A DNA stretch of 64,000 bases. Source: Planctomicrobium piriforme. GTDB taxonomy: Bacteria; Planctomycetota; Planctomycetia; Planctomycetales; Planctomycetaceae. Below are positions 7,202-11,822 of the stretch, in pieces. Under the pieces are notes generated by a model. The model had not been told where the DNA came from. It searched no databases and worked only from the letters and a program-made list of their open reading frames with translations. The position numbers and the translations under genes are program-made. Where the stretch lies: contig CAMATH010000033.1 of assembly GCA_945860955.1 (NCBI GenBank), forward strand, positions 1 to 64,000, written 5' to 3'. Numbering within the stretch: position 1 is the stretch's first letter; the number at the start of each line of letters is the position of its first letter.

Positions 7202-7225
7202 TGAATGTGTAAGGACAATCCACCG

Positions 7226-7540
7226 ATGAGCAAGACCCAATCACGACTGACCGATCTGGAAGCGCTGGGACAGGCGGCGGAATGCCTGCGCGTCCTGGCT
7301 CATGCTCACAGGCTGCGAATGATCCAGATGCTGCTCCAGGGGAACTACACCGTCGGCGAACTGGCCGACGCGTGTGAGTTGCCAACGGCGATGGCTTCGG
7401 AACACCTGCGGCTGATGCAGCGTTGCGGCTTTCTCACCAGCGAAAAAGATGGCCGCAAGGTGTACTACCGTGTCACCGAGCCGCACCTGAAGAGCATTCT
7501 GGCGTGCATCGAAGCGCGGTTCGATTCCGCGACGAAGTAG
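7226..7540 (+). CDS. ArsR/SmtB-family transcriptional repressor (YgaV/BigR-like)
   Basis: 104 aa; start at ATG 7226 behind AAGGA. Winged-helix HTH: TVGELADACELPTAMASEHLRLM (about 42-64) is the recognition region and DGRKVYYRV (75-83) the wing. Cysteines at 20, 50, 67 and 94. Persulfide sensors of the BigR/SqrR/YgaV group use a two-cysteine switch including one in the last helix; Cys94 fits that, while Cys50 sits later than the classical alpha-2 cysteine. The CVC metal motif of ArsR is absent. The neighbours (rhodanese, persulfide dioxygenase, sulfur permease) argue for a sulfide/persulfide signal. It probably represses its own gene and the downstream enzymes. Confidence 0.85.
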   Translation: MSKTQSRLTDLEALGQAAECLRVLAHAHRLRMIQMLLQGNYTVGELADACELPTAMASEHLRLMQRCGFLTSEKDGRKVYYRVTEPHLKSILACIEARFDSATK

Positions 7541-7569
7541 CACCCCCCCCCTATTTGCCACAACAGGTC

Positions 7570-7587
7570 GACAGTTTCCGAACTGTC
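7570..7587. promoter_or_regulatory. Putative ArsR operator, site 2
   Basis: Perfect palindrome GACAGTT-TCCG-AACTGTC, 41 nt before the rhodanese start codon. It shares GACAGTT-N4-AACT with site 1 at the arsR promoter. No T-tract follows, so a simple terminator is less likely. Confidence 0.5.
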
Positions 7588-7628
7588 AATCCTTTGATTC
7601 GATTCCACCTTTTTCTGGACAGGAGTTC

Positions 7629-8231
7629 ATGATGAGCGTCACAACGATTTCTCCGAAGCAGTTGAGTGACCTGGTTCGCGCGGGACAGCCAGTCGACCTG
7701 ATTGATGTCCGGACTCCGGTCGAATACCGCGAAGTTCACGTGGACTTCGCACGCAATGTCCCGCTGGATCAACTCGACGCCGCCCAATGGGCGGCCAGTC
7801 GCAACGGCTCAACTCACCCCCTGTACATCATCTGCCGTTCCGGCGGGCGTGGCAAACAGGCGTGCGAGAAATTCCTGGCGGCCGGTTACTCGGCTGTGGT
7901 CAATGTCGAAGGGGGAACGCAGGCGTGGGATCAGGCGGGGCTGCCCGTGGTCCGCGGGAAAAAGGCGATGTCTCTCGAACGTCAGGTGCGGATCGCTGCG
8001 GGTTCTCTTGTGCTGATCAGTTGTATTGGGACATATTTCAGCCCGTATGCACTCGGGCTGGCGGCGTTCGTTGGGGCCGGGCTGGTGTTCGCCGGTGTCA
8101 CCGACACCTGCGGAATGGGAATGATTCTCGCCCGCATGCCCTGGAATCAGGTGCCGAAAGCGCCGACCGCCGCCCCAGCCATAAACACGGGTTCCTGCGA
8201 CGCAAAGTCGTCGAAACCGTGCTGCAAATAG
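7629..8231 (+). CDS. YgaP-like membrane rhodanese (rhodanese + DUF2892)
   Basis: 200 aa; AGGAG ribosome site 4 nt before ATG 7629. Rhodanese domain at about 5-110 with the catalytic loop CRSGGRG (Cys69). It is followed by a DUF2892 two-helix membrane domain (about 120-172) and a Cys-rich tail ending KPCCK. This is the arrangement of E. coli YgaP, a membrane sulfurtransferase encoded next to the ArsR-type regulator YgaV, the same order as here. It would accept sulfane sulfur on Cys69 at the cytoplasmic face. The C-terminal Cys190, Cys198 and Cys199 might take sulfur in relay; that is inference. Confidence 0.88.
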   Translation: MMSVTTISPKQLSDLVRAGQPVDLIDVRTPVEYREVHVDFARNVPLDQLDAAQWAASRNGSTHPLYIICRSGGRGKQACEKFLAAGYSAVVNVEGGTQAWDQAGLPVVRGKKAMSLERQVRIAAGSLVLISCIGTYFSPYALGLAAFVGAGLVFAGVTDTCGMGMILARMPWNQVPKAPTAAPAINTGSCDAKSSKPCCK

Positions 8232-8288: not shown

Positions 8289-9722
8289 ATGATTCTCAAG
8301 CAATACTATCTCGGCTGTCTGGCGCACGCGTCCTACCTCATCGCCGATGAACGGACCAAAAAAGCGGTCGTCGTTGATCCGCAACGAGACATCGAACAGT
8401 ACCTGCACGACGCCCAGGCCGGCGGGTACTCGATCCAGTACGTGATTCTGACCCACTTTCACGCCGACTTCCTTGCCGGTCACATCGAGTTGCGAAACCG
8501 CGCGGGAGCCCGGATTGTGATGGGTGCTCGTGCCGAGGCCGAGTTCGACTTTCAAGGAGTCAAGGACGGTGACCGGATCGATCTGGGTGACGTCCGCCTG
8601 CAAATGCTCGAAACCCCGGGACACACACCCGAGGGACTCTCGGTACTGGTGTTTGATCTCACGAAAAGCGACACCCTCCCGCAGGCGGTGCTAACCGGCG
8701 ACACTCTGTTCATCGGCGACGTCGGGCGACCCGACCTGTTGGCCTCGATCGGCGTCACCGCCGACGAACTCGCCGACATGCTCTTTCATTCGCTGCAGAA
8801 ACTTCGCGACCTGCCTGACTCGACTCTCGTTTATCCCGCGAACGGTGCCGGCTCAATGTGCGGCAAGAACCTGAGCAAGGAAACCGTCTCGACCATTGGC
8901 GAACAAAAGCAGTTCAACTATGCCCTGCAGCCGATGAGTCTCGACGACTTCAAGCGTCTGGTCACCGCCGACCAACCCGAAGCTCCCGAGTACTTCGTCT
9001 ACGACGCGATCAAGAATCGGCAAGAGCGCCCCGATCTCGCGACCACGCTCCAAACGTCCTTGCAGGCGCTGTCGCTCGACGACGTCACTCGGCTGAAAAA
9101 CCAGGGGGCTCAACTGGTCGACGTTCGCGAAGCGGCCGACTTCGAGGGGGCGCATCTGGCGGGTTCGATCAACATCGGCCTCAAGGGGAAGTACGCCACT
9201 TGGTGCGGTTCGATACTCAGTCATGATCAGCCGATTGTTGTGATCGCCGACCCGGGGAGTGAAGAAGAAGCGGTGATGCGACTGGGACGGATCGGTTTCG
9301 ACAACGTCAGCGGCTACCTCCGAGAGGGAATGCAGGCGTTGGACTCGCATCCGGAGTCGATTCGCACAATCCCGCGGATCACGGCACAGGCGCTGTCCGA
9401 CCGGCTGGCCGAGTCGGATCCTCCATTCGTGCTGGACGTTCGGTCCGAGAAGGAATGGCAGGCGGGACACGTCGTCGGTAGCCACAACATTCCGCTCACG
9501 CATCTCCGTGAACGTCTGGCCGAAGTCCCGGCGGATCGTCCCGTCGTGGTCCACTGTGAAGGGGGATATCGCTCGGCGATCGCCAGTAGCCTGCTGTCAA
9601 CAGCGGGACGATCGAACCTGCAGGATCTGGTCGGTGGGATCAAGGCTTGGGGGGCCTCGAAGTTGCCGACCGAGTCAGCCGGGACCGAAGCCCCGGTCTG
9701 CGCGACCTCGTGCAAAATCTAG
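8289..9722 (+). CDS. MBL-fold persulfide dioxygenase fused to two rhodanese domains
   Basis: 477 aa. Residues 1-240 are a metallo-beta-lactamase fold of the ETHE1/persulfide dioxygenase group: THFHADFLAGH (55-65), PGHTPEG and TGDTLFIGDVGRPDL. It should oxidise glutathione persulfide (or another low-molecular persulfide) to sulfite with Fe(II). A first rhodanese domain (about 265-355) has Asp in VVIADPG where the catalytic cysteine belongs, so it is inactive as a sulfurtransferase. The second (about 372-460) is complete, HCEGGYRS with Cys423. The tail has two more Cys (CATSC). Such fusions (BlhlikeCstB/PRF types) couple oxidation to sulfur transfer. It is 57 nt downstream of the rhodanese gene, probably one operon. 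Confidence 0.88.
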   Translation: MILKQYYLGCLAHASYLIADERTKKAVVVDPQRDIEQYLHDAQAGGYSIQYVILTHFHADFLAGHIELRNRAGARIVMGARAEAEFDFQGVKDGDRIDLGDVRLQMLETPGHTPEGLSVLVFDLTKSDTLPQAVLTGDTLFIGDVGRPDLLASIGVTADELADMLFHSLQKLRDLPDSTLVYPANGAGSMCGKNLSKETVSTIGEQKQFNYALQPMSLDDFKRLVTADQPEAPEYFVYDAIKNRQERPDLATTLQTSLQALSLDDVTRLKNQGAQLVDVREAADFEGAHLAGSINIGLKGKYATWCGSILSHDQPIVVIADPGSEEEAVMRLGRIGFDNVSGYLREGMQALDSHPESIRTIPRITAQALSDRLAESDPPFVLDVRSEKEWQAGHVVGSHNIPLTHLRERLAEVPADRPVVVHCEGGYRSAIASSLLSTAGRSNLQDLVGGIKAWGASKLPTESAGTEAPVCATSCKI

Positions 9723-9753
9723 TGAAATCGTACCTACGAGAAGGATCGCCCCC

Positions 9754-10572
9754 ATGCCGGCACTCAGTCTGTTTTTCGGTGCGGTGGTCGGCCTCTCGCT
9801 GGGACTGACCGGCGGTGGAGGCGCGATTTTCGCGGTTCCGCTTTTGGTCTACGGCCTGTCGGTTCCCATGCGCGAAGCGGTCGCGATCTCACTGGCCGCC
9901 GTGGGTGCGACTTCGTTTGTTGGCTTTCTGCATCGCTGGAAACTGGGGCAGGTCGAGATTCGGACCGGCCTGTTGTTTGCCGCGGCGGGAATGCTGGGCG
10001 CTCCCCTTGGCACGTGGATCGCCGGCCAGATCCCCGAAGCGCTGCTTCTCATGCTCTTCGCCGGGTTGATGATTGTGGTCGCACTTCGACTCTGGCAACA
10101 GGCGTCGGGTCCGGTTGCCCAGACAATCGCGTGCCCGATTCCCGACGAACGCGATGGTCCCACCTGTCAACGAGACGCCTCGGGGGCGCTGCGACTGAAT
10201 TCCCGCTGCGCGATGCTGCTGTTTTTTGTGGGGATTTTGACCGGCGTGTTGTCGGGGCTGTTCGGCGTCGGCGGCGGATTCGTGATTGTTCCCGCACTGG
10301 TTCTGTTCAGCGGGATGTCGATTCATCGAGCGGTCGGCACCTCGCTGATGGTGATCGCACTCGTCAGCGTTTCTGGCATCGCGTCGCAGGTGTGGGCCGG
10401 TCGGGTGATTCCGCCGACCATGACCGCCCTGTTTGTCGTCGGTGGGATCGCGGGTCTGTTCGCGGGCCAGCAGATTGGCCGCCGGTTGTCTGGGCCTGCC
10501 CTTCAAAGAGTATTCGTCGTCGCCATCCTCGCGGTGGCGGCCTTCGTGATCGTTCGGAACCTCTCTGCCTGA
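9754..10572 (+). CDS. TauE/SafE (TSUP) family sulfur-compound permease
   Basis: 272 aa; AAGGA before ATG 9754. Two homologous halves each begin with a glycine-rich loop: GLTGGGG (about 14-20) and GLFGVGGG in the second half, the hallmark of the TSUP family. About eight hydrophobic segments. Between the halves lies a cytosolic loop of about 25 residues (SGPVAQTIACPIP...). Family members export sulfite or sulfoacetate, or import thiosulfate. Next to a sulfite-producing persulfide dioxygenase, sulfite export is the best guess. 31 nt downstream of that gene. Confidence 0.85.
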   Translation: MPALSLFFGAVVGLSLGLTGGGGAIFAVPLLVYGLSVPMREAVAISLAAVGATSFVGFLHRWKLGQVEIRTGLLFAAAGMLGAPLGTWIAGQIPEALLLMLFAGLMIVVALRLWQQASGPVAQTIACPIPDERDGPTCQRDASGALRLNSRCAMLLFFVGILTGVLSGLFGVGGGFVIVPALVLFSGMSIHRAVGTSLMVIALVSVSGIASQVWAGRVIPPTMTALFVVGGIAGLFAGQQIGRRLSGPALQRVFVVAILAVAAFVIVRNLSA

Positions 10573-10655: not shown

Positions 10656-11822
10656 ATGTTCCGACTTCCGAAATTGACACTTCTGTTGTCGCTTACCGTT
10701 TTGACTGGCACCGTCGCTTTGGCTCAGGAAAAGAGTTTGAAGCCCGGGATCAACGATTCCTTTCGGGACCCCGACGTCAAAGAATTCCTGGGCCGGTTCG
10801 AGGTTGAGAGCCGCGAGGTCTTCACCCGCCGCAAAGAAATTGTGGCGGCCTGCAAGATTCAGCCCGGACAGATTGTGGCCGACATTGGAGCGGGAACCGG
10901 GCTCTTCACACAGATGTTCTCCGAAGCAGTGGGAAAAGAGGGACGGGTTGTCGCCGTTGACATCGCGCAGAAATTCCTCGATCACATCGCAGCGACCAGC
11001 CGTGAAGCGGGACGCCGGAATGTGGAGACGCTGCTTTGCAAGCCCGACTCGACCGAACTGCCCCCAGAGTCGGTGGATGTCGCGTTCATCTGCGACACAT
11101 ACCACCACTTTGAGTTTCCGTTGAAAACCATGACCTCGGTGCGTCGCGCTCTAAAACCGGGCGGGCGGGTGATCATCGTGGACTTTCGCCGCGTCGAAGG
11201 GAAGAGTACGGACTGGGTGCTGAATCATGTGCGCGCCGGCCAGGAGGTTGTTGAGGCGGAGATCGTGGAATCGGGATTCCAAAAGACCGCGGAAGACAAA
11301 GAACTGCTGAAGGAAAACTACTTCGTTGCCTTCGAAAAGCCCGCAAAACCGAAACTTGAATTCCCGATCATTCCCAAAAACGGTGGGGTGCTGCACCGGC
11401 CGAACGCGGTCGAACAGCCGCGATCGGGGGCTCGGGTTGTCTTCGACACGACGGCCGATTCCAAACCGACCGACGTCAACAAAGGACTCGAACGGGCGGC
11501 GCGACTCTTGAATCTGTACGGAGTCGCGGGCCTGAAAGCCCAAGATGTCAAGATCGCCATCGTACTCCATGGAGATGCGACGAAAGCGGTTTTGAACGAC
11601 GCCGCCTACAAATCGCGGTGTGGAGCGGATGAGAATCCGAATCTGCCGTTGATTCGCGAACTGCAACAGGCGGGGGTGGACGTGTTCGTTTGCGGCCAGG
11701 CGCTCAGCTACAAGGGATTCGCTGATGCGGAGGTCGCCGAGGGAATTCCGATCGCCGCAGCCGCACTGACAGTGGTGATCAACCGGCAGTCAGAAGGCTA
11801 CAGCTACTTTCCAGTCCCGTAA
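10656..11822 (+). CDS. Exported SAM-methyltransferase fold fused to DsrE-like domain
   Basis: 388 aa. Residues 1-23 are a clear signal peptide ending ALA-Q. Residues 60-225 are a class I methyltransferase (motif I VADIGAGTG 74-82, acidic post-I loop VVAVD 98-102, DTYHHF 147-152, PGGRVIIVDF 168-177). Residues 255-388 resemble the DsrE/F family (HGDAT 305-309, FVCGQAL with Cys346, then a Gly/Ala helix). The pairing of these folds with an export signal is odd, because SAM is not normally available outside the cytoplasm. Either SAM is supplied there, the signal is retained as an anchor with the domain inside, or the fold binds something else. 83 nt after the permease; last gene of the sulfur cluster. 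Confidence 0.8.
   Translation: MFRLPKLTLLLSLTVLTGTVALAQEKSLKPGINDSFRDPDVKEFLGRFEVESREVFTRRKEIVAACKIQPGQIVADIGAGTGLFTQMFSEAVGKEGRVVAVDIAQKFLDHIAATSREAGRRNVETLLCKPDSTELPPESVDVAFICDTYHHFEFPLKTMTSVRRALKPGGRVIIVDFRRVEGKSTDWVLNHVRAGQEVVEAEIVESGFQKTAEDKELLKENYFVAFEKPAKPKLEFPIIPKNGGVLHRPNAVEQPRSGARVVFDTTADSKPTDVNKGLERAARLLNLYGVAGLKAQDVKIAIVLHGDATKAVLNDAAYKSRCGADENPNLPLIRELQQAGVDVFVCGQALSYKGFADAEVAEGIPIAAAALTVVINRQSEGYSYFPVP

Follow-up and report, generated by a model that had tools for sequence, protein, structure and literature searches.

The protein P0001, encoded on the 64,000-nucleotide stretch of Planctomicrobium piriforme DNA that was analysed as a whole (the window), consists of a Sec-type signal peptide, a UbiE-like methyltransferase of class I and a DsrE domain. 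This architecture is confirmed, and the finding as a whole is real and conserved: two known folds are fused, they stand in an operon of a known kind, and they fall inside a wider clade of export-type methyltransferases. The parts of P0001 and the evidence behind each are as follows.

10656-11822, + strand: gene of P0001, an open reading frame of 388 aa
10656..10724, + strand: signal peptide, residues 1-23, with its site between ALA and QEK (sequence; homologous N-termini)
10725..11345, + strand: class I methyltransferase part, residues 24-230 (Pfam, AlphaFold2, match to 3dh0)
10881..10901, + strand: SAM-binding motif I, DIGAGTG, residues 76-82 (residue conservation over homologues)
11091..11114, + strand: post-strand-4 loop, C146-D-T-Y-H-H-F-E153 (residue conservation over homologues)
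11361..11819, + strand: DsrE/DsrF-like domain, residues 236-388 (Pfam PF02635; PDB sequence matches)
11691..11693, + strand: Cys346, conserved cysteine of the DsrE domain (45/45 fused homologues)

The original prediction of a class I methyltransferase with an intact motif I holds, as Pfam Methyltransf_11 covers residues 76-174 at 60.7 bits against a cut-off of 21.2 and the motif reads ADIGAGTG. It was also right about a DsrE-like domain that keeps Cys346: PF02635 covers residues 280-385 at 50.2 bits (cut-off 22.7) and the cysteine sits within VCGQAL, the assignment being based on Pfam together with weak sequence matches to the PDB (2pd2, E 0.002; 1l1s, E 0.018). P0001 is the sole DsrE match of its genome at E 0.01. 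An AlphaFold2 model made from a 46-sequence alignment has a mean pLDDT of 93.7 and a pTM of 0.71. In a VIA-align structure comparison covering residues 25-231, the best solved neighbour of the methyltransferase part is 3dh0 (Z 25.2, rmsd 2.4, 190 aligned residues, 20% identity), and 4obw (yeast Coq5) and 5f8e, titled as SAM- or SAH-bound, rank behind it. The best curated NCBIfam models are the UbiE/MenG equivalog, at 54.6 bits with a cut-off of 378, and two arsenite methyltransferase models, at 49.0 bits (cut-off 510) and 46.7 bits (cut-off 263). Orthology to UbiE and orthology to ArsM are both ruled out by these scores, all of which fall under the curated cut-offs.

Residues expected to hold SAM are conserved far beyond the window. 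All five SAM positions (D76, G78, G80, G82 and D/E102) are kept in 83 of 84 homologues, the lone exception being an open reading frame cut on its 5' side (L104). Residue by residue, motif I keeps D76 in 83/84 and G78, G80, T81 and G82 in 84/84. A second set, C146, D147, H150, H151, E153, H191, R193, E202 and Y222, is invariant over the 84 homologues, and Y149 is found in 83. Where the DsrE domain is fused, its residues C346 and H305 are present in every copy (45/45). These counts omit L002, L003, L004 and L074 and merge rows with identical C-terminal 200 residues; near-identical rows remain, so that the rows are non-independent. Among 20 paralogues of the wider group, Y149 and H150 are kept in all 20, and C146 together with H151 occurs in two (L161, L167).

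The N-terminus of P0001 has a basic n-region, a best 10-residue hydropathy of 2.48 and the site given above, which by sequence and a home-made score bears out the signal peptide proposed earlier, of the Sec type. Homologues keep it: 79 of 82 readable N-termini, a count that includes L074, combine a hydrophobic stretch with a small residue ahead of a near-constant Gln. The N-termini of L067, L074 and L076 are hydrophobic yet fail the small-residue test, and those of L075, L094 and L104 were unreadable. As a control within the genome, a stricter score flagged 3 of 26 Methyltransf_11 proteins, one control protein (L170) having no Met to score. The three are P0001, a lipoprotein-like paralogue at G000:C91 and a 536-aa open reading frame flagged at an internal Met, the last a probable false positive. 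Strongly hydrophobic N-termini, some of them lipobox-like, were seen by hydropathy and by eye in all 20 paralogues chosen by hand from other Planctomycetota genomes (L148-L167), and by eye the N-terminus of one cyanobacterial plasmid relative is likewise hydrophobic. These N-terminal sequences suggest a whole clade of export-type methyltransferases.

The lipoprotein-like paralogue (L002 892-3525) is the second exported-looking methyltransferase architecture of the same genome, and in it a related methyltransferase is fused to DUF7133 (218.5 bits). Export of P0001 by Tat was considered as well and is unlikely, since by eye its signal holds no RR pair; such a pair occurs in a few homologues (e.g. 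L044, L071, L083, L090), where by eye it forms no constant motif.

The fusion of methyltransferase and DsrE recurs. Counted by eye among the matches listed, at least 28 of the 170 genomes of the order, its own among them, encode the two domains in a single frame: 23 contiguously (its own again included) and five with an insert between the domains. At E 1e-20, 161 of the 170 gave a match of some kind, with paralogues and single domains counted. Fused two-domain frames in other assemblies show 52-74% identity. The best 80 of 484 matching loci comprise 33 with methyltransferase and DsrE, 7 with methyltransferase, a further domain (INS, below) and DsrE, 2 with methyltransferase and INS, and 38 with the methyltransferase alone, shares which among the best matches are not frequencies. 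The presence of DsrE needs a minimum of 16 changes on a tree built from 84 methyltransferase domains; the exact two-domain architecture also needs at least 16, and strongly supported branches force 6 of these. The tree is a quick and moderately resolved one, with 34 of 81 inner branches weak and a long branch for L106, and some methyltransferase-only labels may stem from frameshifts or contig ends.

A chance fusion or misassembly is ruled out by this recurrence in other assemblies and by the gain and loss of DsrE on the tree. Homologues do not all have the DsrE part, being without it in some cases; where it occurs it is no accident of assembly. Judged from these sequences, it is a recurrent module that comes and goes among the methyltransferase relatives. 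The two checks proposed with the original prediction both favour it, as homologues retain the signal (79 of 82 readable) and the SAM-binding positions (83 of 84).

P0001 had been placed last in a sulfur operon, and the gene order agrees. Four genes precede it on the same strand:

7205..7540, + strand: ArsR/SmtB-family regulator, 111 aa (NCBIfam HTH_metalloreg, 77.9 bits, over its cut-off)
7629..8231, + strand: rhodanese with a YgaP-like membrane domain (Pfam Rhodanese 54.0, YgaP-like_TM 37.8 bits)
8289..9722, + strand: metallo-beta-lactamase (MBL) fold fused to two rhodanese stretches (Pfam Rhodanese twice, Lactamase_B)
9751..10572, + strand: TauE/SafE sulfite-exporter family membrane protein (Pfam TauE, 170.2 bits)

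All five genes are on the + strand, and 83 bases separate the TauE gene from that of P0001. The regulator scores 45.4 bits against the NCBIfam BigR model, under the cut-off of 155. Its cysteines 27, 57, 74 and 101 are conserved in all 23 aligned copies, and from this pattern it is possibly a persulfide-sensing variant with four cysteines. The MBL-rhodanese protein reaches 44.9 bits with the NCBIfam model for the Blh sulfur transferase/dioxygenase, whose cut-off is 625, and is likely a persulfide dioxygenase.

Relatives show a similar but variable setting. Clusters of reading frames around the 80 best loci include TauE in 26, the dioxygenase type in 25, rhodanese-YgaP in 23, ArsR in 21 and an SQR-like gene in 12; a signal-like rhodanese protein occurs in 9 and an oxidoreductase-rhodanese fusion in 8, two classes for which the Pfam check covered one member each. 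In five loci (L006, L009, L018, L021, L046) the SQR-like gene has TauE on one side and the fusion on the other, and the L006 protein scores 234.6 bits against the model of type III sulfide:quinone reductase, under its cut-off of 525. Forty-three loci have 5 kb or more of flanking sequence on each side. In 16 of these a gene of the dioxygenase, TauE or SQR-like type stands within 6.5 kb upstream, and in none does one stand downstream. When the oxidoreductase-rhodanese type is counted as well, these numbers become 21 upstream and 2 downstream. The sulfur-operon context of the original prediction recurs upstream in those 16 loci but is missing in the other 27 (e.g. L010, L022, L052), which lack dioxygenase, TauE and SQR genes upstream, and 22 of the 43 are without sulfur context even by the wider count. 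The methyltransferase part also occurs independently of these three kinds of gene, and a strictly sulfur-related role for it is thereby disfavoured.

The INS domain either separates the methyltransferase and DsrE parts or stands next to them (L108:2224-2604, L082 6335-6715, also L039, L040, L046 and others). It has about 127 residues and two helix-hairpin-helix repeats, and its His7, His45, His105 and His124 are invariant in 17 rows. The domain had no match in Pfam at E values up to 1 and none in the PDB with E <= 0.001, and one member searched against NCBIfam gave none there. The SQR and INS sequences of relatives gave no match in the genome of the window, in a search run without a positive control, a result that speaks against the leading explanation given below. 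One locus, L082, carries DsrE, INS and methyltransferase as three separate genes of a single cluster that also holds ArsR, rhodanese, dioxygenase, TauE and SQR-like genes, and by eye each of the three proteins has a hydrophobic, signal-like N-terminus. Separate but clustered genes of this kind are a classical sign that the fused parts cooperate, which would apply here too. In L038 a 216-aa reading frame (7226-7930), methyltransferase-like by eye, separates the three-domain fusion from the SQR-like gene.

Our leading explanation, offered tentatively and with somewhat less than even confidence, is that P0001 S-methylates sulfide-derived sulfur in the cell envelope. Exported by Sec, the protein would assist from the envelope an operon that detoxifies sulfide and persulfide. 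Sulfane sulfur or sulfide could be captured by Cys346 of the DsrE domain and then S-methylated by the methyltransferase domain, giving methanethiol, dimethylsulfide or a methylated persulfide. Reactive sulfur that gets past the persulfide dioxygenase in the cytoplasm would in this way be turned into volatile or inert products, with SAM located beyond the cytoplasmic membrane as the methyl donor. The evidence establishes the anatomy and the context of P0001, from which we infer the chemistry. Envelope S-methylation is favoured by the conserved signal and residues, by the recurrent sulfur genes upstream, by the three separate but clustered genes of L082, by a signal-bearing DsrE with sulfur-gene neighbours on a Novosphingobium plasmid (below) and by MddM2, a published signal-bearing protein that S-methylates H2S and MeSH (PMC12904073). 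MddM2 gives a precedent to the original prediction that a sulfur species might be methylated.

Perhaps the exported protein is an active SAM-dependent methyltransferase with a substrate other than sulfide, such as a metalloid, a quinone-like lipid or a side chain of some envelope protein, while the DsrE domain supplies or senses sulfur. We regard this as rather unlikely. It would agree with a methyltransferase that also occurs alone and away from sulfur genes (27/43 loci; 13 neighbourhoods inspected), with a paralogue fused to another domain, DUF7133, and with UbiE and arsenite methyltransferase types as the best curated models, although P0001 scores far under the cut-offs of these models and the methyltransferase is repeatedly found together with DsrE and the sulfur operon. 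The methyl donor poses a problem for any catalysis in the envelope. We know of no source of SAM outside the cytoplasm and of no route to it. An exported SAH nucleosidase would hint at SAM use in the envelope, and neither of the two PF01048 proteins of the genome was flagged as exported. Both points count against envelope methylation and would fit a non-catalytic envelope protein instead, one in which the methyltransferase fold is a binding site for SAM, SAH or some other ligand and the DsrE cysteine binds or relays sulfur. Such a binder is unlikely, and the near-invariant SAM and post-strand-4 residues of the homologues appear to weaken it: nine further residues are invariant over 84 homologues, which would go beyond the needs of ligand binding.

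The SAM problem would disappear if the hydrophobic N-terminus were an uncleaved anchor and the catalytic part faced the SAM-containing cytoplasm. MddM2, which is described as predicted to be membrane-bound with a transmembrane helix (PMC12904073), gives some support to such an anchor. We nevertheless consider this arrangement improbable for P0001, as basic residues precede the hydrophobic stretch, a small-x-small site followed by a conserved Gln comes after it, and some paralogues have lipobox-like N-termini. By the positive-inside rule, basic residues ahead of a hydrophobic stretch place the C-terminus outside.

Envelope S-methylation by P0001, if it takes place, could be one branch of something broader. 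It is conceivable, though on balance doubtful, that Planctomycetota run SAM-dependent chemistry outside the cytoplasm through an exported clade of class I methyltransferases, reaching at least one cyanobacterial relative, and that the sulfide branch of this clade methylates envelope sulfur, with an exported methyltransferase, an exported DsrE carrier and an undescribed exported domain capturing reactive sulfur. The consequence would be a pool of SAM outside the cytoplasm: if the exported methyltransferases of the clade are active, cells must present SAM beyond the cytoplasmic membrane. P0001 is well conserved and tractable and makes the question of extracytoplasmic SAM testable. If it is active, Planctomycetota would become possible producers of methanethiol or dimethylsulfide, and sulfide detoxification would gain an envelope stage.

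By titles and the starts of abstracts, we found no description of the combination of signal, methyltransferase and DsrE in the open-access literature, by title nothing relevant on exported or periplasmic SAM methyltransferases, and no paper on planctomycete operons that combine SQR with persulfide dioxygenase. The closest published precedent for the proposed function is MddM2 of Mycolicibacterium, a UbiE-type methyltransferase with a predicted Sec signal that confers formation of MeSH and DMS from H2S and MeSH (PMC12904073). Compared by description, MddM2 and P0001 are alike in their UbiE-type class I fold, GxGxG motif and predicted Sec signal, and would share a sulfur-gas substrate. MddM2 differs in its length of 204 aa, in its origin from Actinomycetota and, as far as the accessible text goes, in having no DsrE part described. 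The Mdd-type features of P0001 are common to many unrelated methyltransferases and are thus no proof that it belongs to the Mdd proteins. Nor does MddM2 settle where SAM would come from, as its orientation in vivo is not stated in the accessible text (PMC12904073).

The nearest solved structure to the methyltransferase part, 3dh0, is a SAM-dependent methyltransferase of Aquifex aeolicus whose chain of 219 residues is too short to hold a DsrE domain as well, unlike P0001. The DsrE domain has PF02635 in common with the DsrE/DsrF-like family (A. vinosum DsrE, MTH1491 1l1s, ST0148 2pd2), and Cys346 aligns with a cysteine in each of 1l1s and 2pd2. Cysteines of DsrE-type proteins take part in sulfur or thiosulfate transfer, according to two reports (PMC13047784, PMC4175335), and the DsrE-type sulfurtransferases of A. 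vinosum are described as cytoplasmic in the title of another (PMC3397948). Unlike these relatives, the DsrE domain of P0001 is of an exported type and is fused behind a methyltransferase. Signal-bearing stand-alone DsrE proteins on plasmids of Pseudomonadota, for example from Acetobacter and from the Novosphingobium plasmid pLA2 (L145 1011-6483), show about 40% identity over the DsrE part of P0001. They have by eye a signal-like N-terminus of their own and contain no methyltransferase domain. The Acetobacter protein is surrounded by cytochrome oxidase-type genes, whereas on pLA2, which is typed as a conjugative plasmid, sulfur genes are among the neighbours, which comprise ArsR, YeeE, DUF6691, TauE, MBL hydrolase, rhodanese and multicopper oxidase.
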